From: a virus
Strand: one strand, 5' to 3'
DNA: 25,067 nucleotides
Virus record (IMG/VR): IMGVR_UViG_3300033146_002945
Span: 1-25,067 of that record
This document shows positions 5,087-24,517 of the stretch, piece after piece (position 1 is the first letter of the stretch; each line of letters starts with the position of its first letter). Under the pieces are notes generated by a model. That model made no database searches. It worked only from the letters and a program-made list of their open reading frames with translations, and was not told the origin of the DNA. The position numbers were made by a program, and so were the translations under genes.

Positions 5087-5554
5087 ATGAAAGATTTAGA
5101 ATTTATTAAAAAGGATGCATTTAAAAAAGAGCTGGAAAAAGTAGCCAGTAAAGGTCTTTACATGGCTCTGGGGGCAGGTTTGGCTGGGGCTGGTATTGCA
5201 GGTGAAATGGCATTGAATAAATATCAAGATAAAAAAATTGCTCAGGAATCAGGGGAGATTTTTGAAGAAATTTATAGAACTACCCCAGAGTTAAGTAAGT
5301 TCCCTAAATCAGAAGTTAAACTTTACTTCGATTCTTTGGTACATCACTCTCCAAGAGTAGCAACAGATCCCGTATCTGCTAGATCATTTTTGCTGCAAAT
5401 GCTGCCATGGAATGAAACTGGCGGAGTTCCGGTTGATAATTTTGTTAATCTTGCTAAAATTACTCAGACAAATGAGTACATGCCTTATAAAGTTAAAGCA
5501 GGAATAAATAGTGTATTAGCTGCTAATCCCCTTGCAGCGGCTAGATTAGATTAA
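5087..5554 (+). CDS. Small virion-type protein with FxxELEKVAS tag and hydrophobic helix
   Basis: 155 residues. The N-terminus contains 'AFKKELEKVASKG' (residues 12-24), one of the clearest copies of the recurring head-region tag. It is followed directly by a glycine-zipper hydrophobic segment ('GAGLAGAGIAGEMAL'). The rest is a soluble domain without recognised motifs. The start lies two bases after the previous stop with a GAGG site upstream. The order tag, then glycine zipper, then soluble part is shared in outline with neighbours. Function unknown; a head-internal or ejected protein is the best guess. Confidence 0.72.
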   Translation: MKDLEFIKKDAFKKELEKVASKGLYMALGAGLAGAGIAGEMALNKYQDKKIAQESGEIFEEIYRTTPELSKFPKSEVKLYFDSLVHHSPRVATDPVSARSFLLQMLPWNETGGVPVDNFVNLAKITQTNEYMPYKVKAGINSVLAANPLAAARLD

Positions 5555-5559
5555 TAATT

Positions 5560-7272
5560 ATGATTAAATATATAGACATATCTAGTGATGACGATGGCGT
5601 TGAAATAAGCGCCATCCATCCAGGTGTTATGATTAAAACTGCAGAGTTCGATCCAGAACTTGCAGATTTTTTATCTAGTATTAAGCCTAACTTAGGCAAA
5701 TACTATTTACATATAAATGCATTAGGAGCTGGAGAGTATTTTGGGGAAAATAGAAATGGAGATTTTTTCCCGGAAACGGCATTACTAGAATATCATAAAA
5801 CTTTTGAAACAAATGCTAACTTATATAAGCATCATCAAAATAAGCCGCATTTGGGACATAAAATATATGGGAAAGTTTTATTTTCTTTTTATAATAAAAA
5901 AATGCATAGAGTGGAATTAATAGTAGAATTTGATACTGCTACCGCTCCTGAAATTAAAGAGAGAATAGACTCGGGAGAAAATTTAGCTTTCAGTATGGGG
6001 GCTAAATTAAAATATGACGAATGTTCTATTTGTGGTAATAAAGCCAAAAATTTAAATGAATATTGTGATCATTTAAAATATCAAATGAGGCGAACATTAG
6101 CAGATGGCAGGAAAGTATCTGCTATAAATAGACATCCAAAGTTTTTTGATATTTCTTTCGTAACAATACCAGCAGACAGGACTGCTTATATGTTTTCTAA
6201 AGTAGCCTCTGTTAAGGAGGATGGGGAAATAGAAGAAAAAGAATTAGATGTTTTAATGAAAAGTGCCGAGGAAGATTCTATTAAGAAAGCTGAAATAGAG
6301 AAAGTAATTCCCGGTGGAAATTTGGAGGGATATTCAGAAGATCCTAAGGGATTAATTTATAATTCTCAACCAAAGATGTCTAGTTCATTAATGGATGATT
6401 TATTAAAATTTAAATTAAATAAAGTATTATCTACTTTAGCAGCTTTACATATTATGCCTACTAAAAGAGACTTTCAGACATTAGTATTAAAGTCTTCTAA
6501 TATGGGCGGTCTAGCAGATAAATTAAATGATAGGAATTTAGTATTTGCTACGCCAAGAGATGTAAAACCTGTATACGTAGATGATGTAAATACAAATCCA
6601 TGTAATGACGTATTAGAAGTTTTTAGGAATCATGATAACTATTTAAGCCGGGCTCCCCTAACAAAACCTGTAATAAGTATAAGAATTTTAGAGAAGCAGG
6701 CGGAGATGGGGAGAGGAAATGATTTTCAAGAAGGTAGTGAGATGGAACAGTTGGGATTACTATCTGAAGTAGAAGTTGATAAGAATTTAACTTTAACAGG
6801 CGTTAAAAATCCTTTAGTACCCTTATCCGGGATAGCAGGTTTGTATTATGCACAATCCAGGATGTCAAACATGTATAAAGATGCTGAAGGCTTAAAAGCA
6901 TTAATGTTAAATAAGCCTTGGCTATTACCACTTTTTGTAGGGGGGGCTTCTTTAGCTACTATAGTGAGTCAACAATATATGAATAAGACAGCAGGCGCCG
7001 GGCCGGGAATTTTAGCAAGTTCTATGATATCCGTACCTTTAACTTATTTGTATTCTGGCAGACAGGAAAGTAAAGTTAGAAAAGGGGAGCCTATAAGTTT
7101 TTATGGAGATACTGTAAGAAAACATCCTTTTATTATGGGCATAACTCACGGAGTTTTGGCCAGTAAAGCTTTAAATTTAATGGCTAAAACAGCTTCAATA
7201 TCACAGGCATATTTAGAATTACCGGAAAATAAATTTGATGAAATTTATAATACAATTATAGGAATGTCATAG
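5560..7272 (+). CDS. Probable prohead (head maturation) protease with C-terminal extension
   Basis: 570 residues. The first 210 or so match the pattern of herpes-assemblin-fold prohead serine proteases: a His-rich segment 'LYKHHQNKPHLGHKIYG' (candidate catalytic His91/92), a Ser in 'LAFSMGAKL' (Ser145), and the strand 'DISFVTIPADRTAY' (197-210), equivalent to the usual 'SLVTxPANP'. A CxxC...CxxH zinc-knuckle-like insert (C155, C158, C169, H171) follows the Ser. The C-terminal 350 residues are unassigned, with KxA motifs ('LEKQAE', 'NKTAG', 'AKTAS') and a glycine-rich hydrophobic region near 450-500. It would cleave scaffold and capsid proteins during maturation. There is no clear ribosome site upstream, so coupling to the previous gene is likely. 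Confidence 0.8.
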   Translation: MIKYIDISSDDDGVEISAIHPGVMIKTAEFDPELADFLSSIKPNLGKYYLHINALGAGEYFGENRNGDFFPETALLEYHKTFETNANLYKHHQNKPHLGHKIYGKVLFSFYNKKMHRVELIVEFDTATAPEIKERIDSGENLAFSMGAKLKYDECSICGNKAKNLNEYCDHLKYQMRRTLADGRKVSAINRHPKFFDISFVTIPADRTAYMFSKVASVKEDGEIEEKELDVLMKSAEEDSIKKAEIEKVIPGGNLEGYSEDPKGLIYNSQPKMSSSLMDDLLKFKLNKVLSTLAALHIMPTKRDFQTLVLKSSNMGGLADKLNDRNLVFATPRDVKPVYVDDVNTNPCNDVLEVFRNHDNYLSRAPLTKPVISIRILEKQAEMGRGNDFQEGSEMEQLGLLSEVEVDKNLTLTGVKNPLVPLSGIAGLYYAQSRMSNMYKDAEGLKALMLNKPWLLPLFVGGASLATIVSQQYMNKTAGAGPGILASSMISVPLTYLYSGRQESKVRKGEPISFYGDTVRKHPFIMGITHGVLASKALNLMAKTASISQAYLELPENKFDEIYNTIIGMS

Positions 7273-7287
7273 TAGCAAAAAATAAAT

Positions 7288-7316
7288 TTGACAAAAAAAT
7301 AAACATTGTTTATATT
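7288..7316 (+). promoter_or_regulatory. Promoter P2, sigma70-like
   Basis: TTGACA (7288-7293), a 17-base spacer and TATATT (7311-7316) lie in the 86-base gap before the gene at 7359. The leader contains a strong CGGAGGT site (7344-7350). It probably drives the scaffold-like, decoration and capsid genes up to the terminator at 11194. Confidence 0.85.
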
Positions 7317-7358
7317 TAACTTACATTGATTAGAAAATTATAACGGAGGTAACAATTA

Positions 7359-7868
7359 ATGGGAACATTTAATTTAGACGCTTATTTAGGCGAATTGGAA
7401 AAAACAGCAGGGGCTGATGTTAAAGTTGTCCCGGAAAATGTTGATAATTCCGAAAGAGAAAAAGTAGCGGCAGCTGTAGAAGAAGGCCAAATAATGGCTC
7501 ATGCTTTCATGGCTGAACTTGAAAAAGTTGCAGTAGGAGATAGTCCTATACCTTTAGATACCGCTTCTGTAAAAGGTAAAGATGAAATTAACCACGTAGC
7601 TACAACTAACATTAAGCAAGACGAAGTAAATAAAGTTAATGCTATTTTATCACAACTTACTGGTCCGGTAAAAGCTGGTGTTGGTGAAATTGCTACACCC
7701 GCAGGTGTTGTTGACGTACCAGCGAGACCACCGGTAGATGAACAACCTCTTCCAGCTGATGCTATGAAACAGCAGGAACAGCAGGCCGCCGCTGTAGTCG
7801 AAATGAATAAAGCAGCCGCTTCCGACATTCTTACAAATTTATATAATCGTTATTTCGGGGAGGAATAA
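7359..7868 (+). CDS. Scaffold-like acidic protein with two ELEK(T/V)A tags
   Basis: 169 residues, acidic and Ala/Val-rich, with no enzyme motif. It carries two clear tags: 'AYLGELEKTAG' (8-18) and 'AFMAELEKVAVG' (49-60). The second sits in a segment ('EEGQIMAHAFMAEL') that also occurs in the next two genes. The C-terminal half is Pro/Gln/Ala-rich and probably flexible. A strong ribosome site behind promoter P2, and position upstream of the capsid gene, suggest an abundant scaffold or head-core protein that the prohead protease would process. The name is inferred from context, not homology. Confidence 0.75.
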   Translation: MGTFNLDAYLGELEKTAGADVKVVPENVDNSEREKVAAAVEEGQIMAHAFMAELEKVAVGDSPIPLDTASVKGKDEINHVATTNIKQDEVNKVNAILSQLTGPVKAGVGEIATPAGVVDVPARPPVDEQPLPADAMKQQEQQAAAVVEMNKAAASDILTNLYNRYFGEE

Positions 7869-7870
7869 TA

Positions 7871-8149
7871 ATGTCTTTAATTAATACATACAATGAAATG
7901 GTAAAAGAAGCAGAAGTTGATGAGTCTGTAAACGAAAGAGTAGAAATTTTAGAAAAATACGCCTCCGCCGCTGAAGAAATGTTAGACGCGGAATACGGTG
8001 AAAATTATGATGCTAATGATGTACAAAAATTAGCCGCAGCTTTGATTGATCGCGATTTGGAAGCTGAAGAGGATTATGAAAAAATAGCGGAGTTAGATAC
8101 TGCTGGCCGAATTATGGCTAGAGCATTTATCGACGAATTAGAAGGTTAA
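7871..8149 (+). CDS. Small acidic helical protein, paralogue of the next gene's N-terminus
   Basis: 92 residues, highly acidic and helical. Residues 26-92 align along their length with residues 7-71 of the protein at 8160: both have 'LEKYAS', then a YG..Y segment, a 'DV.KLA' segment and 'LID.D', then KIA/RVA, 'AG.I.AR.F' and DEL. The protein ends at 'ARAFIDELEG', exactly where the paralogue continues into KIAG, so it resembles a stand-alone version of a tag domain. A GGGGAGG site precedes the ATG. Likely a scaffold or core protein; no biochemical function can be read. Confidence 0.72.
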   Translation: MSLINTYNEMVKEAEVDESVNERVEILEKYASAAEEMLDAEYGENYDANDVQKLAAALIDRDLEAEEDYEKIAELDTAGRIMARAFIDELEG

Positions 8150-8159
8150 GGGGGTAATA

Positions 8160-9098
8160 GTGCATAATGCTGAAATAGAATACTTAGAAAAGTATGCCAG
8201 TTATGCGGATCAACTTCTTGCCGAAGCTTATGGAACTGATTATAGTGTAGATGATGTAGAAAAACTTGCAGAATCTTTAATTGATCTTGATATGGAAAAA
8301 GTTGCTGAAATGGAACGTGTCGCGGAAATCGTAGAGGCTGGACAAATACAAGCTCGCGGTTTTGCTGATGAATTAATTAAAATTGCCGGTCAAAACTTTT
8401 TTGAAAAAGTTGCATTAACGCGTATGGGTAAAATTTTGCTAAGTGGCGGTGCTAAAGATATTAAAGATGCTGCCAAAATTATGAAAAAACATGGCAGAAA
8501 TGTTAGCCCAAAATCGTTAAAAAAATATTTTAATGAAGCCAAGGCCGCTGGCAATGTAAATAAAAGTGTAGCAAAAAAAGGTGTTAAGGGGTCCTCTGGA
8601 GTTATAAGCAAAGCTAGAGTTAAAAAAGAAAAATTAGTGAAGGGCTATAACAAGGCTGAAGGTAAATTAAAACCTGGTGAGGAATTTTATCAGAAAAAAG
8701 TATATAAATCTGTAGATTTAAAGAAAAACGGTAAGCCAAAGATGAGAGCTAAAGCCGTATCTAGGGGCGAACGTATAGGTAACTTAAAAAATAGTAAAGC
8801 TGGGCAGCAATTAGAAAGAAATAGATCTGCAAGCAAGGCTGATCAATTTAGAAAAGAGGATGCCTATAATTATTCTAAAAAGAACGGTACTGATTTTTCT
8901 TCTTCTTCTTCTTCTTCTTCTTTTAAAAATTCTACAAATTCCAAAAAGCAAGAAGGTAAATATAATTTTGACAGTTTTAAAAAAGATGTCAAAGGTAATT
9001 GGGCAAATTCTAAGAGTTTCGCTAAAAAGAATCCATGGGCAGTTGGAGCTGGCGTAGGCGCCGCGGGTGCAGGTGGATATGCTCTCAATTCTAAATAA
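8160..9098 (+). CDS. Head-region protein: acidic tag domain plus long basic C-terminus
   Basis: 312 residues from a GTG start, chosen because AAGGGGG (8148-8154) sits just upstream. Residues 1-77 are an acidic helical domain paralogous to the preceding gene, ending 'ARGFADELIKIAG'. Residues 80-290 are strongly basic and Lys/Ser-rich, suggesting nucleic-acid contact. A run of eight Ser (TCT codons, 8898-8921) is encoded by a microsatellite. The last 25 residues are a Gly/Ala-rich hydrophobic segment ('AVGAGVGAAGAGGYAL'). The acidic-then-basic design would suit an internal protein that loses its N-terminal domain by proteolysis and then binds DNA. That is inference. Confidence 0.75.
   Translation: MHNAEIEYLEKYASYADQLLAEAYGTDYSVDDVEKLAESLIDLDMEKVAEMERVAEIVEAGQIQARGFADELIKIAGQNFFEKVALTRMGKILLSGGAKDIKDAAKIMKKHGRNVSPKSLKKYFNEAKAAGNVNKSVAKKGVKGSSGVISKARVKKEKLVKGYNKAEGKLKPGEEFYQKKVYKSVDLKKNGKPKMRAKAVSRGERIGNLKNSKAGQQLERNRSASKADQFRKEDAYNYSKKNGTDFSSSSSSSSFKNSTNSKKQEGKYNFDSFKKDVKGNWANSKSFAKKNPWAVGAGVGAAGAGGYALNSK
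8897..8920 (+). repeat. (TTC)8 trinucleotide microsatellite
   Basis: Eight perfect TTC units in a coding region, read in frame as eight consecutive TCT serine codons. Slippage by whole units keeps the frame, so only the length of the serine linker would vary. Confidence 0.95.
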
Positions 9099-9112
9099 AT
9101 AGAAAGATTAAA

Positions 9113-9607
9113 ATGCTATCAATAAATGACATATTAAATGATAACTATGGAGTCGAAGAGCCAGAAAATTCGCCTGATAGCCCTCAATTTAGCGTATCTG
9201 ATTTAGAAAAAACTTCAGAGTTTTTGAAAGAGTTAGAACTTATCGAAGATGAAATAAAGGGCTTAGTTAAAACAGCCTGGGAAGCCGGCAGAAGTGGTAT
9301 AGAGAAAGAAGCAGGAATGATTTCTAATGCCCTTGCCAAAGGTAAAGCTAGAAAAGCTCTAAGAACTGCAGAAACTCATTTATCCGTAGCAGAAGCTATG
9401 GGAGAAGTAAAGAAAATTGAAGAGAAAGCTTTAAGAATTAGAGAAGGTAAAGGTGGAGGAATTCATCCCGCAATCTTAGGAATGGCTGGAGGAGCAGCGG
9501 TAGCTGGGCCTATTGCGTATAATATGGCTACTGAAAAGAAAAAACAAGAATTAAGTGAAGTAGCTAAAAAGTATTATCAGGCTGGGAGGAATAGTGAAAC
9601 TGGATAA
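9113..9607 (+). CDS. Helical head-region protein with LEKT/FLKELE tag
   Basis: 164 residues. After an acidic, Pro-containing N-terminus comes 'LEKTSEFLKELELIEDE', a variant of the head-region tag with Ser in place of the usual Ala. Then come 'LVKTAWEAG' and 'IEKEAGM'. The middle is a basic helix and the end carries a glycine-rich hydrophobic stretch ('AILGMAGGAAVAGPIAY'). The ribosome site is weak. The 3' end overlaps the next gene by 14 bases. It has the same ingredients as its neighbours (tag, helix, glycine zipper), so it is probably another internal head protein. Specific function unknown. Confidence 0.72.
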   Translation: MLSINDILNDNYGVEEPENSPDSPQFSVSDLEKTSEFLKELELIEDEIKGLVKTAWEAGRSGIEKEAGMISNALAKGKARKALRTAETHLSVAEAMGEVKKIEEKALRIREGKGGGIHPAILGMAGGAAVAGPIAYNMATEKKKQELSEVAKKYYQAGRNSETG

Positions 9608-9941
9608 AGACTTATATAAAACTGCAGAAGACCATTATAATTTTCTGCTAAGCAATTATAAAGATACATTAAATTCCAAAGAGATAGAAAAATTAGCTTT
9701 TGCAGTAGTAACGAAAATGGCAGAAGTTGGTACAATTTCTACTCCCGAGGAAGCAATAGAAAAAATAGCTGAATATAGAGAGAAGGGCCTGGAAGATTTA
9801 AAAATAATCGAAAAGGCTATTGATCTAGGTCCTGTGGTAAAGACTGCTGAACATGAAAGCGTTAAGCTGGGTTCGCTATCTGATTCTCCATCCGGAGATG
9901 GCCAGGACAATTTAACTAGTTTTTTACTCGAAGATATTTAA
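9594..9941 (+). CDS. Small helical head-region protein, distant paralogue
   Basis: 115 residues from a GTG at 9594, supported by GGGAGGA (9584-9590) and a 14-base overlap with the previous gene. The sequence 'LYKTAEDHYNFLLSNYKD' followed by 'EIEKLAF' matches, at low identity, the LEKYAS...KLA layout of the proteins at 7871 and 8160. KxA motifs recur through its length (KLAF, KMAE, KIAE, KTAE). The C-terminus is acidic and Ser/Gly-rich. Immediately upstream of the decoration and capsid genes, it is a candidate scaffold protein. The paralogy is a by-eye alignment and moderately supported. Confidence 0.7.
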   Translation: MKLDKDLYKTAEDHYNFLLSNYKDTLNSKEIEKLAFAVVTKMAEVGTISTPEEAIEKIAEYREKGLEDLKIIEKAIDLGPVVKTAEHESVKLGSLSDSPSGDGQDNLTSFLLEDI

Positions 9942-9960
9942 TTAAAAAGGAGTTAACTGA

Positions 9961-10413
9961 ATGTTTAAAATTATTTCAGATTTAAACCTGTGTGAGCGAG
10001 TAACTAGAGAGTATAATGGCACCTTGAGTGCTACTGCAACATCCGGAACGTGGGTAACTCTTAACGCGAGTGGGGAATTTGCGGCAACTGGTAGTACTGC
10101 TACTGGCCTGTCTTTTCCTATCTGGTCTGAGGGTAACCGGGACGGATCTGCTGGATTTACTCCCGATGTGGAAGCTACAGGTAAAATTACTGTTCTTAAT
10201 GGTAAATTTAGAGCGGTAACTGATCAAGTAGCTGCTACGTATGTTAGTGCAGGAATTGCTGTAGGGGATGCTTTAGTAAGTAAAGCAGGAGAATTGACGA
10301 AGATGACTGCTGGAGAAGAAGCTGCTGTCGTGGGCTATGTAAGCGCCGATTTAGGATCTGTTGAGCACGTAGGTGTAACATTTACTGATTGTATAGAAAT
10401 TTATTCTAAATAA
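9961..10413 (+). CDS. Probable capsid decoration (cement) protein
   Basis: 150 residues, Ala/Thr/Gly/Val-rich, predicted mostly beta. The C-terminal half has the pattern 'GIAVGDALVSKAG...' then a VVGYV strand, which resembles small capsid-stabilising proteins encoded directly before major capsid genes in many phages. A good ribosome site (AAGGAG, 9947-9952) and a more G/C-rich codon choice suggest high expression. It likely binds the outside of the expanded capsid. A head-fibre base is the main alternative. The assignment rests on gene order and composition, not on a diagnostic motif. Confidence 0.62.
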   Translation: MFKIISDLNLCERVTREYNGTLSATATSGTWVTLNASGEFAATGSTATGLSFPIWSEGNRDGSAGFTPDVEATGKITVLNGKFRAVTDQVAATYVSAGIAVGDALVSKAGELTKMTAGEEAAVVGYVSADLGSVEHVGVTFTDCIEIYSK

Positions 10414-10430
10414 AAGGGAGTAATTATATT

Positions 10431-10898
10431 ATGGCAGATGTACCTGCAAGTGTAGTAAATCAATTATTCGTGGAGAAATTGGATAATTCTGATGGCCGTG
10501 AAAAAATCGCCTCCGAGGGTGCGCAGTTTATTCGTACCAAACTTAGAGAAGTTTCTTTTGCACGCAAAATTCTTCAACCACAGTACGTAACAAAAGCCGA
10601 TCTTCAGAGATCTTTGAATCATGATGGATTGGTAAAAATAGTAGACATCGAGCCGGATTCGGCAGCGATGGCAATTAACTTTCGTGGCGCAGCTGATACT
10701 CGTTATGTTGAAGGCGAGCGTTATGAAATACCGTTTTTCATGATTTCGTCTGACGATTTTCAGAAAACGGAGCAAGAGCTGTTAGCCTATGAAATGCCTA
10801 TTACAGACGTTATTGACCGTAATAGCGTTAAAGATATTCAGGCAGTAGAAGATGGTGCGTTTATATTTGGTATTGTGGGAAGCTACCAGTGCTGGTGA
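10431..10898 (+). CDS. Major capsid protein, N-terminal fragment (reading frame broken)
   Basis: 155 residues, of which about the first 145 look like the N-arm and start of an HK97-fold capsid protein: 'GAQFIRTKLREVSFARKIL', then 'RYEIPFF' and 'DRNSVKDIQAVEDGAFI'. After that the frame runs into an unrelated tail and a TGA at 10896. The remaining capsid sequence resumes in the +1 frame. Arg codons are mostly CGT/CGC (7 of 9), unlike most of the window, which fits a highly expressed gene. AAGGGAG (10414-10420) precedes the ATG. An EKIAS motif near residue 24 resembles the head-region motif. A real gene, but apparently damaged or misassembled here. Confidence 0.78.
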   Translation: MADVPASVVNQLFVEKLDNSDGREKIASEGAQFIRTKLREVSFARKILQPQYVTKADLQRSLNHDGLVKIVDIEPDSAAMAINFRGAADTRYVEGERYEIPFFMISSDDFQKTEQELLAYEMPITDVIDRNSVKDIQAVEDGAFIFGIVGSYQCW

Positions 10899-11169
10899 CG
10901 CGATTGCCGGGGAATTAATTATTAATGGGTATACATATACTTCTTTGTTTGGTAAAAAATTAATTGTAACTAATAAAAAAGAATATGTACCTCGCGGAAC
11001 TATCTACGGATTTGCCGCTCAAGAATATCTTGGTAATTCCTATATCATGGAAGACACCAAATTCTGGATAGATAAGAAAAAGAATGTCATAACCTGGTCT
11101 GCTTATGAGACTATTGGTATGGGTATTGGTAATATTAAAGCTGTTGCCAAGGTTACCTGGACTGCTTAA
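10852..11169 (+). CDS. Major capsid protein, C-terminal fragment in +1 frame
   Basis: The frame is open from 10852, but capsid-like sequence probably starts near 10879 ('EATSAGDAIAGE'). It has typical features of an HK97-fold C-terminus: 'GYTYTSLFGKKLI', then VPRGTIYGFA, 'EYLGNSYIMEDTKFWI' and 'AYETIGMGIGNIKAV'. No ribosome site serves the ATG at 10852, which lies inside the upstream fragment. The two pieces together give only about 245 residues, short for this fold, so a stretch of the middle appears to be missing as well as the frame being shifted. Terminator T1 follows. Confidence 0.75.
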   Translation: MVRLYLVLWEATSAGDAIAGELIINGYTYTSLFGKKLIVTNKKEYVPRGTIYGFAAQEYLGNSYIMEDTKFWIDKKKNVITWSAYETIGMGIGNIKAVAKVTWTA

Positions 11170-11193
11170 AATATTTAATATCTAAAAAAATAT

Positions 11194-11223
11194 GGCCTAT
11201 AATTAATTTTATAGGCCTTTTTT
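11194..11223 (+). terminator. Terminator T1 after the capsid gene
   Basis: Stem GGCCTAT (11194-11200) pairs with ATAGGCC (11211-11217) across a 10-base loop, followed by a T run. A-rich sequence upstream of the stem could extend the pairing. Confidence 0.9.
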
Positions 11224-11287
11224 ATTTGTTTTATTATATTTTTATCCGTAAATTAAACCATTATAAATTATAAACCAAAACTATATT

Positions 11288-11494
11288 ATGGAAGAGCAAA
11301 CAGTACAGTTGAGAGATGTAGTACTAGAGATTTATGGACTTAAAAAGAGAGAGGAGTCTCTAAAAAAAGAATTGGAATCTTTACACCTAGATATTGATAG
11401 GAAAGAAAGCTTCCTTTATAATTCTTTGCAGGAGGAAGCAATTCAAACGGCAAGGGAGGCCCGGCTTAAAGAGGGCTCCACTTCTAAAAAGTAA
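11288..11494 (+). CDS. Small coiled-coil protein between two terminators
   Basis: 68 residues, charged, with a heptad-like pattern through 'LKKREESLKKELESLHL', so probably a coiled-coil oligomer. Family not recognised. The gene is isolated between terminators T1 and T2. It has no Shine-Dalgarno site: the ATG is directly preceded by TATATT, the same arrangement as the possibly leaderless gene at 12184, but no good -35 box is found 16-19 bases upstream. It may depend on read-through of T1. Position after the capsid gene suggests a structural or assembly role, but this is a guess. Confidence 0.6.
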   Translation: MEEQTVQLRDVVLEIYGLKKREESLKKELESLHLDIDRKESFLYNSLQEEAIQTAREARLKEGSTSKK

Positions 11495-16715: not shown

Positions 16716-18169
16716 TGGCAGAAGGCGCAAAGATAGTTTTTAAGAAAGGCGACACACCAGTAGATACTCCTGCGGCAGGTTCTCATTATTTATGGATAGC
16801 TACTAATGGAGATATGACTGTAAAGGATGACGCCTCCAATGTAAATAAAGTAGTAGGTGGCAATACGGAAGACGTATCATCTGCTAATTGGGTACTGGAC
16901 GAAGATACTTTAATATCTAATTCGGATGAAAAGGTTCCCACACAACAGAGTGTAAAGGCTTATGTAGACGCTATTACAATTTCTAATCCAGGAGACATTA
17001 CTTACAATACGGATAGTGACGTTTCGGGTAATAATTGGGTATTAAATGAAAATGATCTTCATTCAGCTTCCACTACTAAGTTAGCTACTCAGGGAAGTAT
17101 TAAAGCTTATATAGATGCAAGCGTAGCATCCAATCAGTCGGATATAACTTACAATACGGATGTAGATATATCCAGTAATGCGTGGGTATTAAATGAAAAT
17201 AACTTAGTCTCCAACTCTTCTATTAAAGTTCCAACACAGAGTAGTGTAAAAGCTTACGTAGATAGTAGTGTCATTATTAATCAGGGAGATGTCACTTATA
17301 ACACGGATATGGATGTTTCAAGTAATGCGTGGGTATTAAATGAAAATACTTTAATATCTAACTCTAGTAGCAAGCTGGCTACTCAAAGTAGCATTAAAGC
17401 TTATGTAGATGTTAATGTAGCGTCTGATCAATCAGATATAACTTATAATACAGATGCAGATATATCCGGAAATGCCTGGATACTTGATGAAGATAATTTG
17501 ATATCTGATTCAGATATCAAAGTACCTACTCAGCAAAGTGTAAAAGCTTACGTAGATAATAATGCAGTAGCTAACCCGGGAGACATTACTTATAATACGG
17601 ATACTGATATATCTAGTAATGATTGGGTATTAGATGAAGATAGTATGACGTCTAATTCTAATAAAAAACTAGCTACTCAGCAGAGTATAAAGGCTTACGT
17701 AGACGCCAATTCCGGGGGTTCAAGTCAATTTATACAAGTGCAAGATGTGAAATCACATAATACTCAGGGTGGGACATTTACCAGGTATGCTAAAAGAACT
17801 AGAACATTGAATACAGTAGTTTCTAATAATATTACAGGGGCATCTCTGTCAAGTAATCGAGTTAATTTACCTGCCGGCACTTATTATTGTGAAGGATTAG
17901 CTACAACATTTAAAGTTAATTATCACAGACTTTATATAGAAGATGTGACTAACTCCACTACTCTTCTAGAGGGGTGTTCTAGATATTCCAATACTGCTGT
18001 AAATGATTTGGCCAATGTTTCCGGAAGATTTACCCTAACGGGCGCGGCATCTATTGAACTGCAGCATTATTGTACTAGAACTAATAATAGTAATGGATTT
18101 GGCAGAGCAGCTAGCGATATGGATGGAAATGAAAGATACGTAGATTTTAAAATATGGAAGGTGAGTTAA
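16715..18169 (+). CDS. Repeat-containing receptor-binding fibre with jelly-roll-like tip
   Basis: 484 residues. Residues 1-52 are an attachment region ('KIVFKKGDTPVDTPAAGSHY'). Residues 53-330 hold six 49-residue repeats, each with a 'NWVLDEDTLISNS' half and a 'KVPTQQSVKAYVD' half, a motif widespread in phage fibre shafts. Residues about 334-484 form a C1q/TNF-like beta tip ('VNLPAGTYYCEG', 'NVSGRFTLTGAASIELQHY', 'YVDFKIWKV') expected to bind the host receptor. Start ATG overlaps the previous stop. The following small gene may be its assembly partner. Host-range determinant by inference. Confidence 0.85.
   Translation: MAEGAKIVFKKGDTPVDTPAAGSHYLWIATNGDMTVKDDASNVNKVVGGNTEDVSSANWVLDEDTLISNSDEKVPTQQSVKAYVDAITISNPGDITYNTDSDVSGNNWVLNENDLHSASTTKLATQGSIKAYIDASVASNQSDITYNTDVDISSNAWVLNENNLVSNSSIKVPTQSSVKAYVDSSVIINQGDVTYNTDMDVSSNAWVLNENTLISNSSSKLATQSSIKAYVDVNVASDQSDITYNTDADISGNAWILDEDNLISDSDIKVPTQQSVKAYVDNNAVANPGDITYNTDTDISSNDWVLDEDSMTSNSNKKLATQQSIKAYVDANSGGSSQFIQVQDVKSHNTQGGTFTRYAKRTRTLNTVVSNNITGASLSSNRVNLPAGTYYCEGLATTFKVNYHRLYIEDVTNSTTLLEGCSRYSNTAVNDLANVSGRFTLTGAASIELQHYCTRTNNSNGFGRAASDMDGNERYVDFKIWKVS
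16871..17704 (+). repeat. Six tandem 147-bp coding repeats in an A-B dimeric pattern
   Basis: Repeat units begin at 16871, 17018, 17165, 17312, 17459 and 17606; the last is partial. The period is exactly 49 codons. Odd units read KVPTQ.SVKAYVD; even units read KLATQ.SIKAY(V/I)D. The real repeating unit is therefore a 294-bp pair present three times. Confidence 0.93.
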
Positions 18170-18171
18170 TA

Positions 18172-18687
18172 ATGGATATAGCTTTAACTATAGATAATTT
18201 ATTACCAGCAGCTACTTATACTGGTACTTTTACAGATAATACAGAGGCAGAATATGATGCTTTGGATTGGACAGATGCTAGGGAAAAGCCCGCATGGTCT
18301 GCCATAGTATCTAAAGATACTGTACTTCAATTAGAGATAGCGAAGGATGAACAAAAAGAGCTTATTAGAGAAAATTTCTATGTAGATACTTTAAAGCAAG
18401 TACAGGTTGAAGACGAGAATGGAGTAGATACTTGGTGGAACGGCGGGTTTGATTCTGCCGTAAGACTAGACGCTGCTTTAAGATTAACCCAGAAAATACC
18501 AGGATACACAACTTGTGTAATTCATGATTATTTTAATGAGTCTCATACTTATACTTTTTCCGGAGTAGATATAATTACCGTTGCAATAGGGGCATCTTTT
18601 CAATATAAATTTGGGAGAAAAGAAGCATTGCTGGTCGCTATTGATAGCGCTTCGGGTATAGAGGATGTACAAAATATTGTATGGTAG
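18172..18687 (+). CDS. Fibre-associated protein, DUF4376-like (possible fibre assembly factor)
   Basis: 171 residues from the ATG at 18172, which lies just after the fibre stop with GGAAGGTGAG upstream; an earlier ATG at 18154 overlaps that site and is less likely. The C-terminal half ('WWNGGFDSAVRLDAALRLTQ', 'VAIGASFQYKFGRKEALL', ending 'IEDVQNIVW') resembles the DUF4376-like domain encoded next to fibre genes in many phages. It may help fold or cap the repeat fibre encoded just upstream. It overlaps the next gene by seven bases. The family assignment is moderate. Confidence 0.65.
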   Translation: MDIALTIDNLLPAATYTGTFTDNTEAEYDALDWTDAREKPAWSAIVSKDTVLQLEIAKDEQKELIRENFYVDTLKQVQVEDENGVDTWWNGGFDSAVRLDAALRLTQKIPGYTTCVIHDYFNESHTYTFSGVDIITVAIGASFQYKFGRKEALLVAIDSASGIEDVQNIVW

Positions 18688-19139
18688 GGTACAAGGATCA
18701 AAAAGTTCTCTTAAATATCCAGTTGTCTGGCGGAGAGGACGACTTATATCCTCAGGCTACTGTGGTTAGATCGGATAATACTGTGCTGGGAGTGTATGAC
18801 TTAGATCATACTATTGATGGTATGTATACAAATTATATTAATCCGGTGGACGTAGGCTCTTATGTAATATCTTTTAAAATATATACAGATGCCGCCCACA
18901 CTGTAGAGTCATATTTTTATGCCGATAGAGTTGGGGAACATCTATCCGTAGAATCGGGCGAGTCTAACACCGAAGAATTAATAATGTTAGCCAAGAACGA
19001 TAATAAATTAGATCCTGGTACTAATACTCTTATTATTTATGAAGATGATGGTATTACTCCTGCAGTCACTTATGATTTATTTGACGTTAATGGTATTCCG
19101 GCAGTTAATAATGTTTATTATAGAAAGAAGCAACCTTAA
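18681..19139 (+). CDS. Beta-rich fibre/baseplate-type protein, unknown
   Basis: 152 residues. An N-terminal beta domain includes 'VLLNIQLSGGEDDLYPQATV' and a 'GMYTNYINPVDVGSYVISF' segment resembling Ig-like domains in phage appendages. A C-terminal part ends in 'NTLIIYEDDGITPAVTYDLF'. The ATG overlaps the end of the previous gene and no strong ribosome site is seen, so translational coupling is likely. It overlaps the next ATG by one base. Probably a structural protein of the appendage or neck; no specific role can be assigned. Confidence 0.65.
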   Translation: MVGYKDQKVLLNIQLSGGEDDLYPQATVVRSDNTVLGVYDLDHTIDGMYTNYINPVDVGSYVISFKIYTDAAHTVESYFYADRVGEHLSVESGESNTEELIMLAKNDNKLDPGTNTLIIYEDDGITPAVTYDLFDVNGIPAVNNVYYRKKQP

Positions 19140-19363
19140 TGCAAATGTTTATTACTCGCGGTCTTGGAATGACTACCGCATACGTTGATACAGTTATTGT
19201 TGCTGGGGTTCAGGTGGACATAGATAATAGGGACGATATAACAGGTGATATAGATGCATCCTCTAATTATAAAGTTGCAACTAGTGGGAAAACTGCTTAT
19301 AAAACTTCTATAACTAAGAAGTCTAAACATAAAGTATCAGTAAAGACAAAAGGAATAGTATAA
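19139..19363 (+). CDS. Small hypothetical protein
   Basis: 74 residues, starting in a TAATG overlap with the previous gene and ending in a TAATG overlap with the next. An alternative ATG lies two codons in (19145). The first half has short hydrophobic beta-like segments ('AYVDTVIVAGVQVDID'); the second half is Lys/Ser/Thr-rich and basic. No family recognised. Tight coupling on both sides argues it is a real gene and a small virion or assembly part. Confidence 0.6.
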   Translation: MQMFITRGLGMTTAYVDTVIVAGVQVDIDNRDDITGDIDASSNYKVATSGKTAYKTSITKKSKHKVSVKTKGIV

Positions 19364-20139
19364 TGGCGTTTGATGTAAGTATTTATCAAAATAATAATAA
19401 AGATTTAGAAGTAACAGTTACAGATGAAAATGATAATGTGGTAAATTTGACAGGAGCACAATTAGAATTTAAAGTGGTTGACTGGAGAAATAATGAGTTA
19501 ATTAGTAAAATGTCTACGGCAGGGCCTACGCAAATAGAAATAACAGATCCTCCGGCTGGGAAAGCTACCATTTATTTAGAACCGACGGACACGGAAAATA
19601 TACCTCCAGGAACTTACGCATGCTATATGGATTTAATAACCGCTACCAATAAGAGATACACAGTAGATACCGGGGATTTTAAAATATTTGCTGCGGCAGG
19701 CTCTTATCAATTAGTTATTAATAAGATAAGGAATTTAATATCTGATAAAGAAGAGTTAAATGTATTAACCAATGAAGAGGAATCTACCGATGAACGTATG
19801 ATGGATTATATAGAAAAATCCATAGATTATTTTAATACGGCAGGATATACAACTTCCTTTACTATAAAAGATTTTCCGAATCTTGGAAATTTAATTGATG
19901 GAACTATTATACAAATATTAATAGGTGAAGGAATATTATCTGCCAGGAATCTATTAACTTATAATGATTCCGGAGGAGTTCAGGTATCTGATTTTGATAA
20001 ATATGGAAGATATGTTAATTGGTACAATGTATTGATTGCTAAATATACACAGCAAGTTATGGAAATAAAACGGTCCATGAATGTAGAAGCAGCTTACGGA
20101 AATATAGATTCAGAATTTAGTGAAGTCTGGTATAACTAA
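19363..20139 (+). CDS. BppU-like N-domain fused to a helical connector-type region
   Basis: 258 residues. Residues 1-108 look like the Ig-like BppU N-terminal domain of phage baseplate proteins ('LEVTVTDENDNVVNLTGAQL', 'PAGKATIYLEPTDT', 'PPGTYACYMDL'). Residues 115-258 are helical ('YQLVINKIRNLISDKEELNV', 'MMDYIEKSIDYFNTAG'), reminiscent of head-tail adaptor proteins. It could link neck and appendages. TAATG overlaps at both ends indicate translational coupling. The N-terminal call is reasonable; the C-terminal call is tentative. Confidence 0.65.
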   Translation: MAFDVSIYQNNNKDLEVTVTDENDNVVNLTGAQLEFKVVDWRNNELISKMSTAGPTQIEITDPPAGKATIYLEPTDTENIPPGTYACYMDLITATNKRYTVDTGDFKIFAAAGSYQLVINKIRNLISDKEELNVLTNEEESTDERMMDYIEKSIDYFNTAGYTTSFTIKDFPNLGNLIDGTIIQILIGEGILSARNLLTYNDSGGVQVSDFDKYGRYVNWYNVLIAKYTQQVMEIKRSMNVEAAYGNIDSEFSEVWYN

Positions 20140-20921
20140 TGTTAGAATTAATAAATGTTTTTATTGACACCTTAGACATAGATGCTTTAGATATCCACTG
20201 GGAAGTTAGAAATACCGGGGAGCAAATATCTAATTATAGTATGGATTTATATAGATCTGAAGCTCCGGTAGCTATAACTGAATTTGAGTATGTAGCTTCC
20301 GACATTGACTTAGCCTCGGGCATATATACCGATAATACCCTTAGTAGGATGTCTTATTCTATTAACAGAAATATTTATTATTACTTGAAAGTAATAGAAA
20401 CTTCTTCCGGTATAAATAAGAATTACGGTCCGTATTACATGACCACAACTCCGGATTATGCTGCTATAGAAATAATAAGGAGAAAAAACATAGTTCTAAC
20501 AAATCCAAGGTATGGAGCTAGAACTTTTAAAATTTTAAAAAGAAGAACATGGGGAGATTACTGTTCCAGGTGTTTTGACCCTATAACTCAGCGATCTCAA
20601 GATCCCAGCTGTACTACCTGCTACGGTACCGGGATTGAAGGTGGTTATTTTGATTCTATAACTCTTAAAGGATATAGATCTCAAAGATCTTATAGGAGTC
20701 TGTTAAATTTATTTGGAGTTTTTGAAGATACGGACGTTTCATTTGTAATGCAGGGACATCCTTTATTAAATGTAAATGATACTTTAGTAGATGAATTAAA
20801 CACAAGATATAAAATATTAGATCCTGTAAGGCATACTGAAAAAGGTATGTATGTTTTAGAACAGCAGGTTAGGGCTGATATTATACCAACTTCAGATATT
20901 ATATATAAATTAGATGTATAG
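20139..20921 (+). CDS. Zinc-ribbon virion protein with FN3-like N-domain (neck-type)
   Basis: 260 residues. Residues 1-105 suggest a fibronectin-III-like fold (Trp at 21, 'YYLKVIETSSG'). Then comes a four-Cys zinc ribbon, C142/C145 and C158/C161, in 'RRTWGDYCSRCFDP' and 'DPSCTTCYGTGIEGGY'. This pattern occurs in conserved phage structural proteins encoded near neck genes. The rest ('YKILDPVRHTEKGMYVLEQQ') is beta-rich. The start overlaps the previous stop. The likely role is in the neck or head-tail junction; this comes from gene order. Confidence 0.68.
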   Translation: MLELINVFIDTLDIDALDIHWEVRNTGEQISNYSMDLYRSEAPVAITEFEYVASDIDLASGIYTDNTLSRMSYSINRNIYYYLKVIETSSGINKNYGPYYMTTTPDYAAIEIIRRKNIVLTNPRYGARTFKILKRRTWGDYCSRCFDPITQRSQDPSCTTCYGTGIEGGYFDSITLKGYRSQRSYRSLLNLFGVFEDTDVSFVMQGHPLLNVNDTLVDELNTRYKILDPVRHTEKGMYVLEQQVRADIIPTSDIIYKLDV

Positions 20922-20932
20922 GAGAAAAATTT

Positions 20933-21382
20933 ATGCATTGGGCACAATTTGTATTCGGATTAATTTTAATATTTTCGTTCGAAAGACTTAGAGAAATAAC
21001 TAATTTTTCAGGATGGTTTAAAGCGAGTTACTTTTCTAAAGTTTCGGATTATTTAATTAAACGTAGGAAGAGGAGTAAGTTTTTACAAAGCCATTTAACA
21101 GATTATATGATAGATAGAATATATAAATGGTTCGAAAGTAAGGCTATTAATAAAGTTAAGTATGTTGTAGTGTTTCATTTTAAAATTCCCACACATCCTA
21201 TTATGTATGATGCTTATCACTTTTTTAAAAATATGCTAGTGATTTCAGCAGTAGTTGTATTTGGGTGGGAACTAGGAATTTGGTGGATATTGGTTGGATT
21301 AGTACTAAGTTGGTTAATACAAGAAAAGGTAATATTAAGATATGTTTGCCCCGGGCTTACCGTCAAAAAAATTAAAAAGTAG
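20933..21382 (+). CDS. Small membrane protein
   Basis: 149 residues. A hydrophobic N-terminal helix ('WAQFVFGLILIFSF') could be a membrane anchor or signal. A second strongly hydrophobic region lies at about 103-135 ('MLVISAVVVFGWELGIWWIL'), probably one or two membrane spans, and the segment between is basic. AGGAGA (20920-20925) gives a clear start. The 3' end overlaps the ligase gene by 41 bases. Family not recognised. A holin-like role is possible but there is no endolysin beside it, and a membrane-associated assembly or ejection role is equally possible. Confidence 0.65.
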   Translation: MHWAQFVFGLILIFSFERLREITNFSGWFKASYFSKVSDYLIKRRKRSKFLQSHLTDYMIDRIYKWFESKAINKVKYVVVFHFKIPTHPIMYDAYHFFKNMLVISAVVVFGWELGIWWILVGLVLSWLIQEKVILRYVCPGLTVKKIKK

Positions 21383-22673
21383 TTTTCCTTCTTTAAAGGA
21401 TAAGCGGTTGCCGTTTGTTATACAAAAACATAATGCAGACCGCGCAGGATTGCATTACGATTTTCGTATATCAGATGGCAGCATAGCCTATTCTTGGGCT
21501 ACGAGGAAAGGTCTACCTTCAACAGGTGTAAAACATTTATTTGTAAGGCAGCCGGATCATACCCCAGAATATATGTCTTTCCAAGGACAGATATCTGACG
21601 GCTATGGTAAAGGTAAAGTTAGTACTTTTAAATCCGGAAATGTGCATATATTAGAATCATCTACCAGCAAAATTAAATTTAACATATACAATGGACAAGG
21701 GGTGGATCAATATATACTAATAAATACAGGGTCTGATAACTGGCTTTGTATTAATATAACTCCTACCTTAAATAACAGAAGTTTAATACCTACAAAAAAA
21801 GTTAAGTATAAAGAGGGTAATGTTAATAATTTAGAATTTAATAATTCTATGGTGTTATCTCCTAAAATAGATGGAAGCGCTTCTTTATTTGTTTTAAAAA
21901 AAGAAAGACCAATTGAAGTTTTTTCATATAGAAAATCTAAACGTGGTCCGGAACTAATAAACAGGACATATAAATATCCATATTTATATAACAGAAAAGT
22001 ACCAAAAGAGTTAGATAATACTACTCTGTGGGGGGAGTCATTTGTAGTAGACAGCTCTAATAAGCCTTTGCCCTATCGTAAAGTTTCCGGGCTTTTAAAT
22101 ATGAATACAGATAAAGCAGTAAAATTAGTTAATAAAAGAAATTATAAATTTGATAACATTATTTATAATATAAATACTTTTAAAGGTAAAAAATTCATAG
22201 ATGAAAATTATGGTAATAAGCTAAAGAAATTAAGAGAAATTAATACTCTAATACCAGAATTAAAATTACCAGAATTAGCAGTTACTGAAAAAGAAAAAAG
22301 ATTATTATTTGAATCAATAAAAAGAAATAAAAATATAACTACCGGCGAGGGTTTAGTTGGATATAATATTTATAGCTCTAAGCCAATAAAGTTTAAGTTT
22401 AAAAAAGATACAGAACTATATATTAATGGATTTGAAGAGGGTAGGGGGCGCCTAAAAGGTACTCTTGGTAAAATATATGGTGTGGAAGATTCTCAAGGCT
22501 CTGGTCCTATTATTGCAGTGGGCAGTGGCTTTACTGATAAGGAGAGAAGGGATATTTGGGCTGATAAGAAATCTTATATGGGATTGCCGGCAAAAATACA
22601 ATATCAGGAAAGATTGCCTAGCGGTAAATTAAGAACTCCAATATATAAGGGGATAAGAAGAAATTGGATATAA
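21342..22673 (+). CDS. LigD-like 3'-phosphoesterase / ATP-dependent DNA ligase fusion
   Basis: 443 residues. The N-terminal about 100 residues form a LigD 3'-phosphoesterase domain with its metal and catalytic residues visible: 'QKH' (His30), 'LHYDFR' (His38, Asp40, Arg42) and 'DHTPEY' (His73, Tyr77). This cleans 3' ends. It is followed by an ATP-dependent ligase: motif I KIDG (Lys175, the adenylated residue), GES (Glu232), EGLVGYN (336-342) and motif V 'KFKFKK' (350-355). An OB-fold ending 'GKLRTPIYKGIR' completes it. Together they would process and seal DNA breaks. LigD's polymerase domain is absent. The ATG at 21342 overlaps the upstream gene; AAGGT precedes it. It is out of place among neck genes. 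Confidence 0.88.
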   Translation: MFAPGLPSKKLKSSFPSLKDKRLPFVIQKHNADRAGLHYDFRISDGSIAYSWATRKGLPSTGVKHLFVRQPDHTPEYMSFQGQISDGYGKGKVSTFKSGNVHILESSTSKIKFNIYNGQGVDQYILINTGSDNWLCINITPTLNNRSLIPTKKVKYKEGNVNNLEFNNSMVLSPKIDGSASLFVLKKERPIEVFSYRKSKRGPELINRTYKYPYLYNRKVPKELDNTTLWGESFVVDSSNKPLPYRKVSGLLNMNTDKAVKLVNKRNYKFDNIIYNINTFKGKKFIDENYGNKLKKLREINTLIPELKLPELAVTEKEKRLLFESIKRNKNITTGEGLVGYNIYSSKPIKFKFKKDTELYINGFEEGRGRLKGTLGKIYGVEDSQGSGPIIAVGSGFTDKERRDIWADKKSYMGLPAKIQYQERLPSGKLRTPIYKGIRRNWI

Positions 22674-22678
22674 ATAAT

Positions 22679-22707
22679 TTGACTATTGATAGGAGTTTGA
22701 TTATATT
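22679..22707 (+). promoter_or_regulatory. Promoter P6, sigma70-like
   Basis: TTGACT (22679-22684), a 17-base spacer and TATATT (22702-22707). Predicted start near 22714. It lies right after the ligase stop and would drive the tail-terminator and downstream tail genes. Confidence 0.78.
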
Positions 22708-22911
22708 TTGATTAGGCCAACTATATACAGAAAAGAAGAGGGGTCGGTAGGGGGAAAAATAGTAGAGATGATCTCTAGTAAGTTAGAGAGATTAGATGCG
22801 TCTTTAATAGTTAAGCAGGTAAATGAAAATGAGATAACTATTTCTACTAAAAATAAAGATAACTCTATAAAATTTAGGGATTTAATAATACAGAAAATTA
22901 ATAGTCTATGA
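22708..22911 (+). CDS. Small hypothetical protein (start uncertain)
   Basis: 67 residues if begun at the TTG at 22708, for which AGGAG (22691-22695) is a possible ribosome site. That TTG directly follows the -10 box of P6 and would lie upstream of the P6 transcript start, so from P6 the likely start is the ATG at 22767 (about 47 residues), with GTAGGGGG roughly 12 bases upstream. The protein alternates helix and strand ('EMISSKLERLDASLIV', then 'ENEITISTKN'). It overlaps the next gene by four bases. No family recognised. Confidence 0.55.
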   Translation: MIRPTIYRKEEGSVGGKIVEMISSKLERLDASLIVKQVNENEITISTKNKDNSIKFRDLIIQKINSL

Positions 22912-23768
22912 GCTACTCTATAGCCGTTAAACATATATTTTTATCATTTTTGCAGGAGTTATTTTCTGAAAATGATTTTTTAACTTGGAGTTTAGATCCT
23001 AGATTAACTAAAATTTTTATAGGTGATGAATATTTTATTAGTAACCCAATAATAGAAAAATATCCATCAGTAATTTTAAAGAGATCGTCGTTTAGGTGGG
23101 GAATGCACTCCATAGATCAAAGAATGGAGCTTGATTTAGCCACTAATAATAAAAAGTTTTCAGATGTCTTTTATGGTAACATAGTATATAACGTGTTAAC
23201 CACGTCACAGCAAAGTTCAGAAAGATTAGCAGATTATATATTTTCTAACCTTACTGCACATAGAGATCAATTTAGACCTAAAGGCATTATGAAATTTACT
23301 GGGATATCAGTAGGAGAACAGGTATCTATTAAAGGTCCTACGGATGTAGAGTTAATTAATGTTCCAATAAGTATTGGGTATGCTTTTAATAAAGAGTTAT
23401 CTAATATTACTGATTTACATGATATAAGAATTTCTGCAGTAGGAAAAGGTTTTACAGGGCACGAGGCCAGCGGCGAGTTTCAATCTGGATATTTTGTATA
23501 TAATAATGATTATACTGTTAGCGGGCAAGATATAATATTTACAAACGCTCCTTCGGGAGTAGAATTAGTTATTAAATATATAGGAAGCCTAACGTTACAA
23601 GAATATGAAGAATCTTTAGACTGTACTAATGGGTGTTCTAATATTTATACGTTGCATGAAGTTCCTAGATGGCATTTTGAATTATTGTCTGGCATTGAAA
23701 TTTATTCTGGTGTGGAAACTCAATCAGGAATAGAGACGGCGGAGGGAGATCCTTGGATACTAGTTTAA
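22908..23768 (+). CDS. Probable tail terminator/neck protein
   Basis: 286 residues. The first 165 or so look like a tail-completion fold: a helix ('HIFLSFLQELF'), beta strands ('RWGMHSIDQRMELDLAT'), a long helix ('QQSSERLADYIFSNLTAHRD') and another strand pair. The C-terminal 120 residues are an added beta region ('SGYFVYNNDYTVSGQDIIFT') of unknown role. Its ATG overlaps the previous stop (ATGA). Placement just before a tail sheath gene agrees with a protein that caps the tail tube and joins it to the neck. Fold-level inference only. Confidence 0.6.
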   Translation: MSYSIAVKHIFLSFLQELFSENDFLTWSLDPRLTKIFIGDEYFISNPIIEKYPSVILKRSSFRWGMHSIDQRMELDLATNNKKFSDVFYGNIVYNVLTTSQQSSERLADYIFSNLTAHRDQFRPKGIMKFTGISVGEQVSIKGPTDVELINVPISIGYAFNKELSNITDLHDIRISAVGKGFTGHEASGEFQSGYFVYNNDYTVSGQDIIFTNAPSGVELVIKYIGSLTLQEYEESLDCTNGCSNIYTLHEVPRWHFELLSGIEIYSGVETQSGIETAEGDPWILV

Positions 23769-24517
23769 TAAAATACGCTTCTTTTTTAAATGAATTAGAA
23801 AAGACAGCGGGTATTCGTAGTTCAATTTTTAAAAAATTAGTAAATAAGTTTCCAAAATTATTAGACTTTGGTAATAAATTTAAAAGTTATGCTAAAGCCG
23901 GGGCATCCTCCGAGCGCGCTTTTGCCCCTAAATTCTTTAATAAAGGGACGGTTGCAAGCGCTGGTAAAGATGCTATGAAAGGTGAGCTGGGAAAAATAAC
24001 ACATAAGCCGACGTTAGGTTTTAAGCCTAAGGAAGCTATTGGCTTTAGAGAAGTTACACCAAATGCAAATCATGGACTAAAGTGGTATCAAAAGAACCCC
24101 GGGGAATGGGGTAAGTCTGTATTAAAGAGTCAGGCTGATAGATTTGATTATGCAAAAAAACATGGAATATTTAAGACAATTGGAAAACAGATATCAGAAG
24201 CTCGTCATTATACTAAAGAGTTTAAAGGAGCAGATGGTAAATTATACCAGGGAAAATTTAAAAGATCGGTTGCTGGCCAGGCTCTCGGAGTAGCAGGTGG
24301 AACCGGAGTAGCCTTCGGCGGTCTTGAATATATGAATAAAGAAGATGAACAAGGAAATCCGCTTACTAAGGGGAAGCGCGCATTAAACGCGGCAGCAGAA
24401 GTAGGAAAATGGACTGTTGCAGAACCTCTTATGATGGCAAAAATGACACTATATGATCTACCAAAAATGGGATTAGATTTAATAAAGCCTAAAAAAAGTA
24501 ACAATAGTGGGTTTTAA
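23753..24517 (+). CDS. Tagged internal-type virion protein with FLNELEKTAG motif
   Basis: 254 residues from a TTG start, chosen because GGAGGGAG (23741-23748) lies five bases upstream; it overlaps the previous gene by 16 bases. The N-terminus reads 'IKYASFLNELEKTAG' (residues 6-20), the same tag as in the head-core proteins 14 kb upstream. The middle is basic and soluble. A glycine-rich hydrophobic stretch ('GQALGVAGGTGVAFGG') lies at about 187-202, and the C-terminus is basic. It has the same ingredients as the head-core proteins (N-terminal tag, glycine zipper), so it may be packaged inside the head and ejected. Function not known. Confidence 0.72.
   Translation: MDTSLIKYASFLNELEKTAGIRSSIFKKLVNKFPKLLDFGNKFKSYAKAGASSERAFAPKFFNKGTVASAGKDAMKGELGKITHKPTLGFKPKEAIGFREVTPNANHGLKWYQKNPGEWGKSVLKSQADRFDYAKKHGIFKTIGKQISEARHYTKEFKGADGKLYQGKFKRSVAGQALGVAGGTGVAFGGLEYMNKEDEQGNPLTKGKRALNAAAEVGKWTVAEPLMMAKMTLYDLPKMGLDLIKPKKSNNSGF

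Follow-up and report, generated by a model that had tools for sequence, protein, structure and literature searches.

Destruction of the head scaffold and trimming of packaged proteins are known from phage T4, in which the core is digested to peptides and short N-terminal leaders are cut from the internal proteins; the capsid-targeting sequences of T4, which comprise ≈10 residues, can direct proteins of foreign origin to the core of the head (PMC9958956). Among larger phages, SPN3US gp245 and phiKZ gp175 recognize comparably short sites (A-X-E↓S, S-X-E↓; arrows mark the cleaved bond), and the published SPN3US site is A-X-E with Ser at P1′ (PMC10052503). Here, we analyze a 25-kb virus record (IMG/VR IMGVR_UViG_3300033146_002945, positions 1-25,067; hereafter, the window) in which a short peptide recurs, mostly in genes close to a prohead protease and the major capsid protein (MCP). 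A preliminary description of this DNA suggested that the peptide, with FxxELEK as its core, could be a modular tag that addresses otherwise unrelated proteins to the head and/or marks them for processing. We find that the conserved unit is instead hydrophobic-x-Lys-x-Ala. On sequence grounds, the peptide very probably belongs to a cleavage code, [L/M/F/I]-[E/x]-K-x-A-[E/S/A/G], that is recognized by the phage's own prohead protease (5560-7272) and is most likely cut after the Ala.

In the window, an intein-containing terminase gene and the head block (3531-11169) are accompanied by tail genes and a final gene at 23753; genes are named below by their first position. A near-identity DNA search with the window returned no match. 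Relatives were collected from IMG/VR, where a capsid query gave 21 loci and a protease query recovered none, and by protein search, which added Salmonella phage Arash and Vibrio phages D181, D148, and D69 as named relatives and Bacillus phage G, cluster C mycobacteriophages, and Rhodococcus phage E3 as more remote sources of protease homologs.

A Lys-x-Ala motif is enriched in head genes

We counted patterns against shuffles of each protein and also searched blindly by testing all three-residue gapped patterns, with Poisson statistics for P values. EKxA ranks first in the head block of the window (20 occurrences versus 1.98 expected, p = 5e-14, in 10 proteins), followed by KxAE, LxKxA, and KxAS, with FxxEL (6 versus 0.53) as a secondary pattern. 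The same search returns LxKxA at the top for the Arash head block (21 versus 1.86, p = 2e-15) and KxAS for that of D181 (18 versus 1.78, p = 9e-13), and it finds no comparable pattern in the non-head genes of the window. The shared core is hydrophobic-x-Lys-x-Ala, mostly in the form [L/M/F]-E-K-x-A-[E/S/A/G]. Across 421 KxA sites, position −2 is occupied by L, M, or F and is hydrophobic in 68% (32% in the background), Glu is favored at −1 (3.7-fold), Thr, Val, or Gln lies between the Lys and the Ala, and Glu or Ser follows the Ala.

This motif is confined to head genes. Hydrophobic-x-K-x-A occurs 33 times in the head genes of the window, where 5.9 are expected (5.6-fold), and once in its other genes, where 3.8 are expected (0.3-fold); the tail genes have no excess of KxA. 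The head blocks of ten relatives hold 278 sites versus 49.0 expected (5.7-fold), compared with 27 versus 24.1 (1.1-fold) elsewhere. Each of eleven IMG/VR loci has 12-33 sites upstream of the capsid gene, where 4-6 are expected, and counts near expectation downstream of it; in eight large IMG/VR loci as well as in Arash and D181, the motif fills the capsid gene and those upstream of it but not the downstream genes. A scan of all 268 open reading frames (ORFs) of Arash gives 32 sites in the head block (4.5 expected) and 43 in the remaining genome (36.3 expected). The sole clear excess outside the Arash head block is gp242, with six sites, and its D181 homolog, D181_0303, carries ten KxA. Arash gp242 has been detected in virions (PMC10585845).

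The scaffold-like proteins of the head block are acidic and rich in Lys, Glu, and Ala, as would be expected if their helix or coiled-coil composition gave rise to the pattern by chance. Shuffles that preserve composition, however, yield only about one-fifth of the observed count. Exchanging the Lys for Arg, Gln, Glu, or Asp, or the Ala for Ser, Gly, Leu, or Glu, brings the counts to near chance (≈1-fold), and so do K-A spacings of 1, 3, 4, or 5. Because the excess is lost when the Lys, the Ala, or their spacing is changed, helix composition is not its cause, and the little excess in the remaining Arash ORFs and the invariance of KxA in the capsid and protease leaders (see below) likewise make this explanation very improbable. 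The motif search proposed in the preliminary description as a check against helix composition thus finds the motif commoner than expected in both the window and its relatives.

The peptides quoted in the preliminary description, from 5087 (AFKKELEKVAS), 7359 (AYLGELEKTAG and AFMAELEKVAV), 7871 (AFIDELEG), 8160 (GFADELIKIAG), 9113 (EFLKELELIE), 23753 (SFLNELEKTAG), and 12390 (KFLKELD), are all present in the translated ORFs, and the enrichment that they pointed to is real, although the tag was drawn too long and its membership needs revision. The quoted peptides of 7871, 9113, and 12390 are not sites because they lack KxA; 12390 has none anywhere, whereas 7871 and 9113 have true sites elsewhere. 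Those of 7359, 7871, and 8160 all lie in one paralogous segment, AGxIMARAFxxELxKxA, which is kept in relatives; here, the ELEK stretch reflects paralogy. We therefore rejected FxxELEK as a unit, as it is in part this paralogous segment and the conserved core is KxA. Redefined in this way, the motif is carried by 3531, 3824, 4158, 5087, the protease, 7359, 7871, 8160, 9113, 9594, the capsid N terminus, and 23753; the sites in 3531, 3824, 4158, the protease (eight copies), 9594, and the capsid N terminus had been missed.

As positive controls, we ran the blind search on proteins of two phages with mapped proteases. AxES came first among the SPN3US proteins cut by gp245 (12 versus 1.23 expected, p = 8e-9). 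For T4 head proteins, the top pair was IxE, and LxE was second when the set was restricted to the core proteins and the protease; the published T4 specificity is [I/L]xE. Since the search returned the published sites, a repeated short motif in head precursors is the protease site in both known systems.

Sites in the protease and the capsid protein

We assign ORF 5560-7272 as the prohead protease because it matches the phrog_18299 head maturation protease (E = 2.1e-9), has annotated homologs (E3 gp77 is annotated as a prohead protease), occupies the expected place in the gene order, and retains the invariant residues NxN, H92, S145, and CxxC...CxH. Within this protein and its relatives, KxA is unevenly distributed: 12 sites versus 1.8 expected in the leader, 5 versus 9.4 in the catalytic domain, and 30 versus 8.2 (3.7-fold) in the stretch that follows it. 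Within an otherwise variable leader just ahead of the catalytic domain, both K26 and A28 are kept by 14/14 proteases. The excess extends to remote homologs, as KxA is found eight times in the phage G protease (2.5 expected) and at ≈2-fold or more in the proteases of phages G, I3, and Myrna; it is weaker in that of Rhodococcus phage E3 (7 versus 4.7).

KxA is present in the leader of every aligned MCP, with 17 sites in 17 leaders, even where insertions and deletions move its position, and it is avoided in the mature bodies (6 versus 21.9 expected). In the Arash capsid protein, gp226, K27-E-A29 directly precedes G30, which is thus the predicted mature N terminus. Five actinophage MCPs retain KLA near residue 45. 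The decoration-like family, which weakly matches gp26 of phage G, carries KxA at chance level (7 versus 6.8).

These placements bear on what the motif does. KxA could instead be an uncut binding motif, a head-address or scaffold-docking peptide recognized by the capsid or portal, as suggested by the occurrence of MKYFxKxA leaders on unrelated proteins, by a leader-like double site on 23753, and by the precedent of the T4 capsid-targeting sequence (PMC9958956). Most sites, however, are internal and recur 5-10 times, and KxA flanks the catalytic domain of the protease and ends the capsid leader; its avoidance in the body of the capsid protein is better explained by cleavage than by binding. The information is also contained within ≈6-7 residues around a fixed K-x-A, matching the P3-x-P1 layout of the SPN3US site. 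A binding role is therefore unlikely, and the processing-site proposal of the preliminary description is strongly supported with the motif redefined: it is confined to head genes, is present in all MCP and protease leaders examined, is depleted in mature bodies, and is of the kind that the search recovers for SPN3US and T4. Because the SPN3US and T4 sites have the P3-x-P1 form and a small or acidic residue follows the motif, we favor a cut after the Ala, with Lys at P3 and Ala at P1.

Several observations weigh against cleavage at KxA by this protease. The AlphaFold model of the protease is poor (pLDDT 51), which leaves its fold unconfirmed, and a PDB fold search gave no match at E ≤ 0.001. 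An hhalign comparison with T4 gp21 is collinear (NxN...H...S) but not significant (p 0.03-0.07). At the aligned position, the MCP of phage G has no KxA. Furthermore, Arash proteomics reported near-complete coverage of motif-rich proteins (100% for gp223 and 95.8% for gp220) (PMC10585845), which is unexpected because proteins that are digested and lost should not be fully covered. Proteins with just two unique peptides have very high coverage values too, and these values cannot settle cleavage; the near-complete coverage is unexplained unless precursors were present in the preparation or the values are unreliable. That study reports no semi-specific search and makes no mention of the motif or of cleavage (PMC10585845). 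No usable protease family emerged from Pfam or NCBIfam, the AlphaFold models of the protease and MCP are too poor for placing the sites on a fold, and the Myrna capsid paper contains no information on a protease or the N terminus.

Both genes have further features of interest. The CxxC...CxH cluster (protease residues 155-171) lies within the catalytic domain, is kept in phage G, actinophages, and an Erwinia phage, and is possibly a zinc site. In three relatives, the protease gene is broken by intein/homing-endonuclease sequence (L009, 5304-8237; L022, 5039-7852; L007, 4987-8166), and in L009 and L022, the insertion separates the conserved SMG motif from the cysteine motif CSICG. The capsid gene of the window is itself split into two ORFs in different frames, without residues that relatives have, which reflects either an assembly error or a real deletion.

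Scaffold-like proteins, leaders, and candidate cargo

The features of the head block and the distant gene at 23753 are collected in Table 1.

Table 1 Head genes and predicted cleavage sites in the window (aa, amino acids; arrows mark predicted cuts)
Feature	Position	Strand	Remarks
97-aa protein, predicted head cargo	3531..3824	+	Leader MKYFEKNA↓G (KxA 3546-3554)
114-aa basic protein, predicted head cargo	3824..4168	+	Leader MKYFNKEA↓A (KxA 3839-3847)
308-aa protein	4158..5084	+	10 KxA (2.6 expected); Gly/Ala-rich hydrophobic C-terminal segment; homologs in relatives also multi-site
155-aa protein	5087..5554	+	Leader FIKKDAFKKELEKVA↓S (last KxA 5138-5146), then directly a Gly/Ala-rich hydrophobic segment
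Prohead (head maturation) protease, 570 aa	5560..7272	+	phrog_18299; 8 KxA sites, each followed by E/S/G
K26-T-A28, predicted self-processing site ahead of catalytic domain	5635..5643	+	Invariance in relatives
K214-V-A216, predicted self-processing site just past catalytic domain	6199..6207	+	Opens KxA-rich stretch in relatives
169-aa acidic scaffold-like protein	7359..7868	+	ELEKTA↓G 7401-7409, ELEKVA↓V 7524-7532
92-aa acidic scaffold-like protein	7871..8149	+	4 KxA (0.6 expected); C-terminal AFIDELEG corresponds to the paralogous segment but lacks KxA
Acidic scaffold-paralog domain (≈76-78 aa) plus 230-aa basic tail	8160..9098	+	Junction at ELIKIA↓G (8379-8387) and FFEKVA
164-aa protein	9113..9607	+	True sites LVKTA and IEKEA↓G; Gly/Ala-rich segment
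115-aa acidic scaffold-like protein	9594..9941	+	5 KxA (0.9 expected)
Decoration-like protein directly upstream of capsid gene	9961..10413	+	No KxA; negative control within block
Major capsid protein, broken in this contig	10431..11169	+	Relatives match phage G gp27, PDB 6wkk
K25-I-A27↓S28, predicted capsid N-terminal cleavage site	10503..10511	+	KxA in leader of all compared relatives
254-aa basic protein, predicted packaged	23753..24517	+	Leader SLIKYA↓SFLNELEKTA↓G (KxA 23771-23779, 23801-23809); encoded after tail genes

Most KxA copies are internal, often with 5-10 in a single scaffold-like protein, which argues that KxA itself is not an N-terminal address. The KxA-rich proteins 7359, 7871, and 9594 and the N-terminal ≈76-78 residues of 8160 are acidic (pI 4.1-4.6), whereas 3531, 3824, the tail of 8160, and 23753 are basic (pI 9.9-10.3). 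This split suggests a disposable acidic core around basic cargo. The 230-residue tail of 8160 is Lys/Ser-rich and is absent from the compared relatives.

Two N-terminal leader types that end in KxA preserve part of the address proposal made in the preliminary description. In the window, MKYFxKxA starts 3531 and 3824; each of two relatives, L003 and L004, has four ORFs with this leader, and at least five groups of carriers remain after clustering by body similarity. The second leader, IKx(A/D)(A/S)FxxELEKxA, is common to 5087 and 23753, and it also occurs in members of the 5087 family from four further relatives (L014, L015, L019, and L022). By analogy with the internal proteins of T4, these leaders may be capsid-targeting sequences that end in a cleavage site, with the internal sites serving for digestion only. 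This extension is compatible with KxA cleavage, and we consider its chances to be slightly below even. It would account for MKYFxKxA on several body families and for the leader shared by 5087 and 23753, and it has a parallel in the T4 N-terminal targeting sequence that sends green fluorescent protein into the core (PMC9958956). Targeting itself, however, is beyond the reach of sequence, and the likeness among leaders may partly reflect recent whole-gene duplication, given that body similarity clusters five of the L003/L004 proteins.

The motif-bearing proteins 4158, 5087, 8160, 9113, and 23753 each contain a hydrophobic segment of 19 residues, 10-12 of which are Gly/Ala, and no other tested gene reaches 10. 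This common segment supports placing 23753 among the head proteins. Its predicted packaging can be kept on account of its two N-terminal sites, its basic body, and its Gly/Ala segment of the head-block kind, although no homolog of 23753 was found. The segments in these five proteins have GxxxG-like spacing, and the proteins are possibly membrane-active ejection proteins.

Two further observations concern genes outside the head block. Intein splicing domains and LAGLIDADG domains are both found in the terminase ORF (84-3470), which has at least two LAGLIDADG stretches, and the protein encoded at 21342-22673, amid the tail genes, joins an N-terminal LigD 3′-phosphoesterase domain to a C-terminal DNA ligase OB domain.

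Discussion

The distribution of sites suggests how maturation might proceed. The protease would be packed with the scaffold and activated upon completion of the prohead, when it could free its catalytic domain by cutting its N-terminal leader at ≈28 (K26-T-A28) and its long tail at ≈214-216. The scaffold-like proteins 4158, 7359, 7871, and 9594 and the N-terminal domain of 8160 would then be chopped small inside the prohead at their many K-x-A sites. The capsid protein would lose ≈27 N-terminal residues, and cargo such as 3531, 3824, 5087, and 23753 would shed a short N-terminal leader.

Similar to SPN3US gp245 and phiKZ gp175, the predicted system would use a short P3-x-P1 site that is repeated in the propeptides and scaffold of a large-phage head, would favor Ser at P1′, and would include a protease that cuts itself. 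It differs in having Lys at P3, Ala rather than Glu at P1, a hydrophobic residue at P5, 12-33 hydrophobic-x-K-x-A sites per head block, and a protease with the CxxC...CxH cluster. The neighborhood of protease, scaffold, and capsid genes recalls that of T4 (gp21, the gp22/67/68 core, and the leaders of the internal proteins), and the window leaders resemble T4 capsid-targeting sequences in that they are short, N-terminal, common to unrelated bodies, and end at a predicted protease site. T4, however, cuts after Glu, its leader sequence is different, and there is no significant profile match to gp21. The herpesvirus assemblin cuts between Ala and Ser, and its site shares the P3-x-P1 spacing and has small residues at P1 and P1′; it differs from the predicted KxA site in that P3 is hydrophobic instead of Lys and in having few sites per scaffold.

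The head modules of Arash and of D181, D148, and D69 share with the window homologous protease (gp222 in Arash) and capsid proteins, the order of the block, and the enrichment of the motif. Phage G (gp19/gp27) and the actinophages I3, Myrna, and E3 share the homologous protease domain; the actinophage protease genes are much longer than that of the window (852-1408 aa). We propose, tentatively, that one Lys-x-Ala code extends across Salmonella and Vibrio phages, uncultured phages, phage G, and cluster C actinophages, and that two interchangeable leaders, MKYFxKxA and IKxA(A/S)FxxELEKxA, are capsid zip codes clipped on arrival, so that head cargo could be read from sequence.

Our literature search found no paper that gives a KxA prohead cleavage site. 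Although destruction of the scaffold and removal of leaders are known from T4, the K-x-A specificity appears to be undescribed in the searchable literature, and the predicted KxA code would add a new specificity to a familiar kind of system. Should K-x-A prove to be the site, the head proteins that are digested or trimmed, the ends of the mature capsid protein and protease, and distant cargo such as 23753 and Arash gp242 become predictable from sequence. The blind pattern search, which recovered the SPN3US and T4 sites, is a simple reader of the maturation code in phages that have never been grown.

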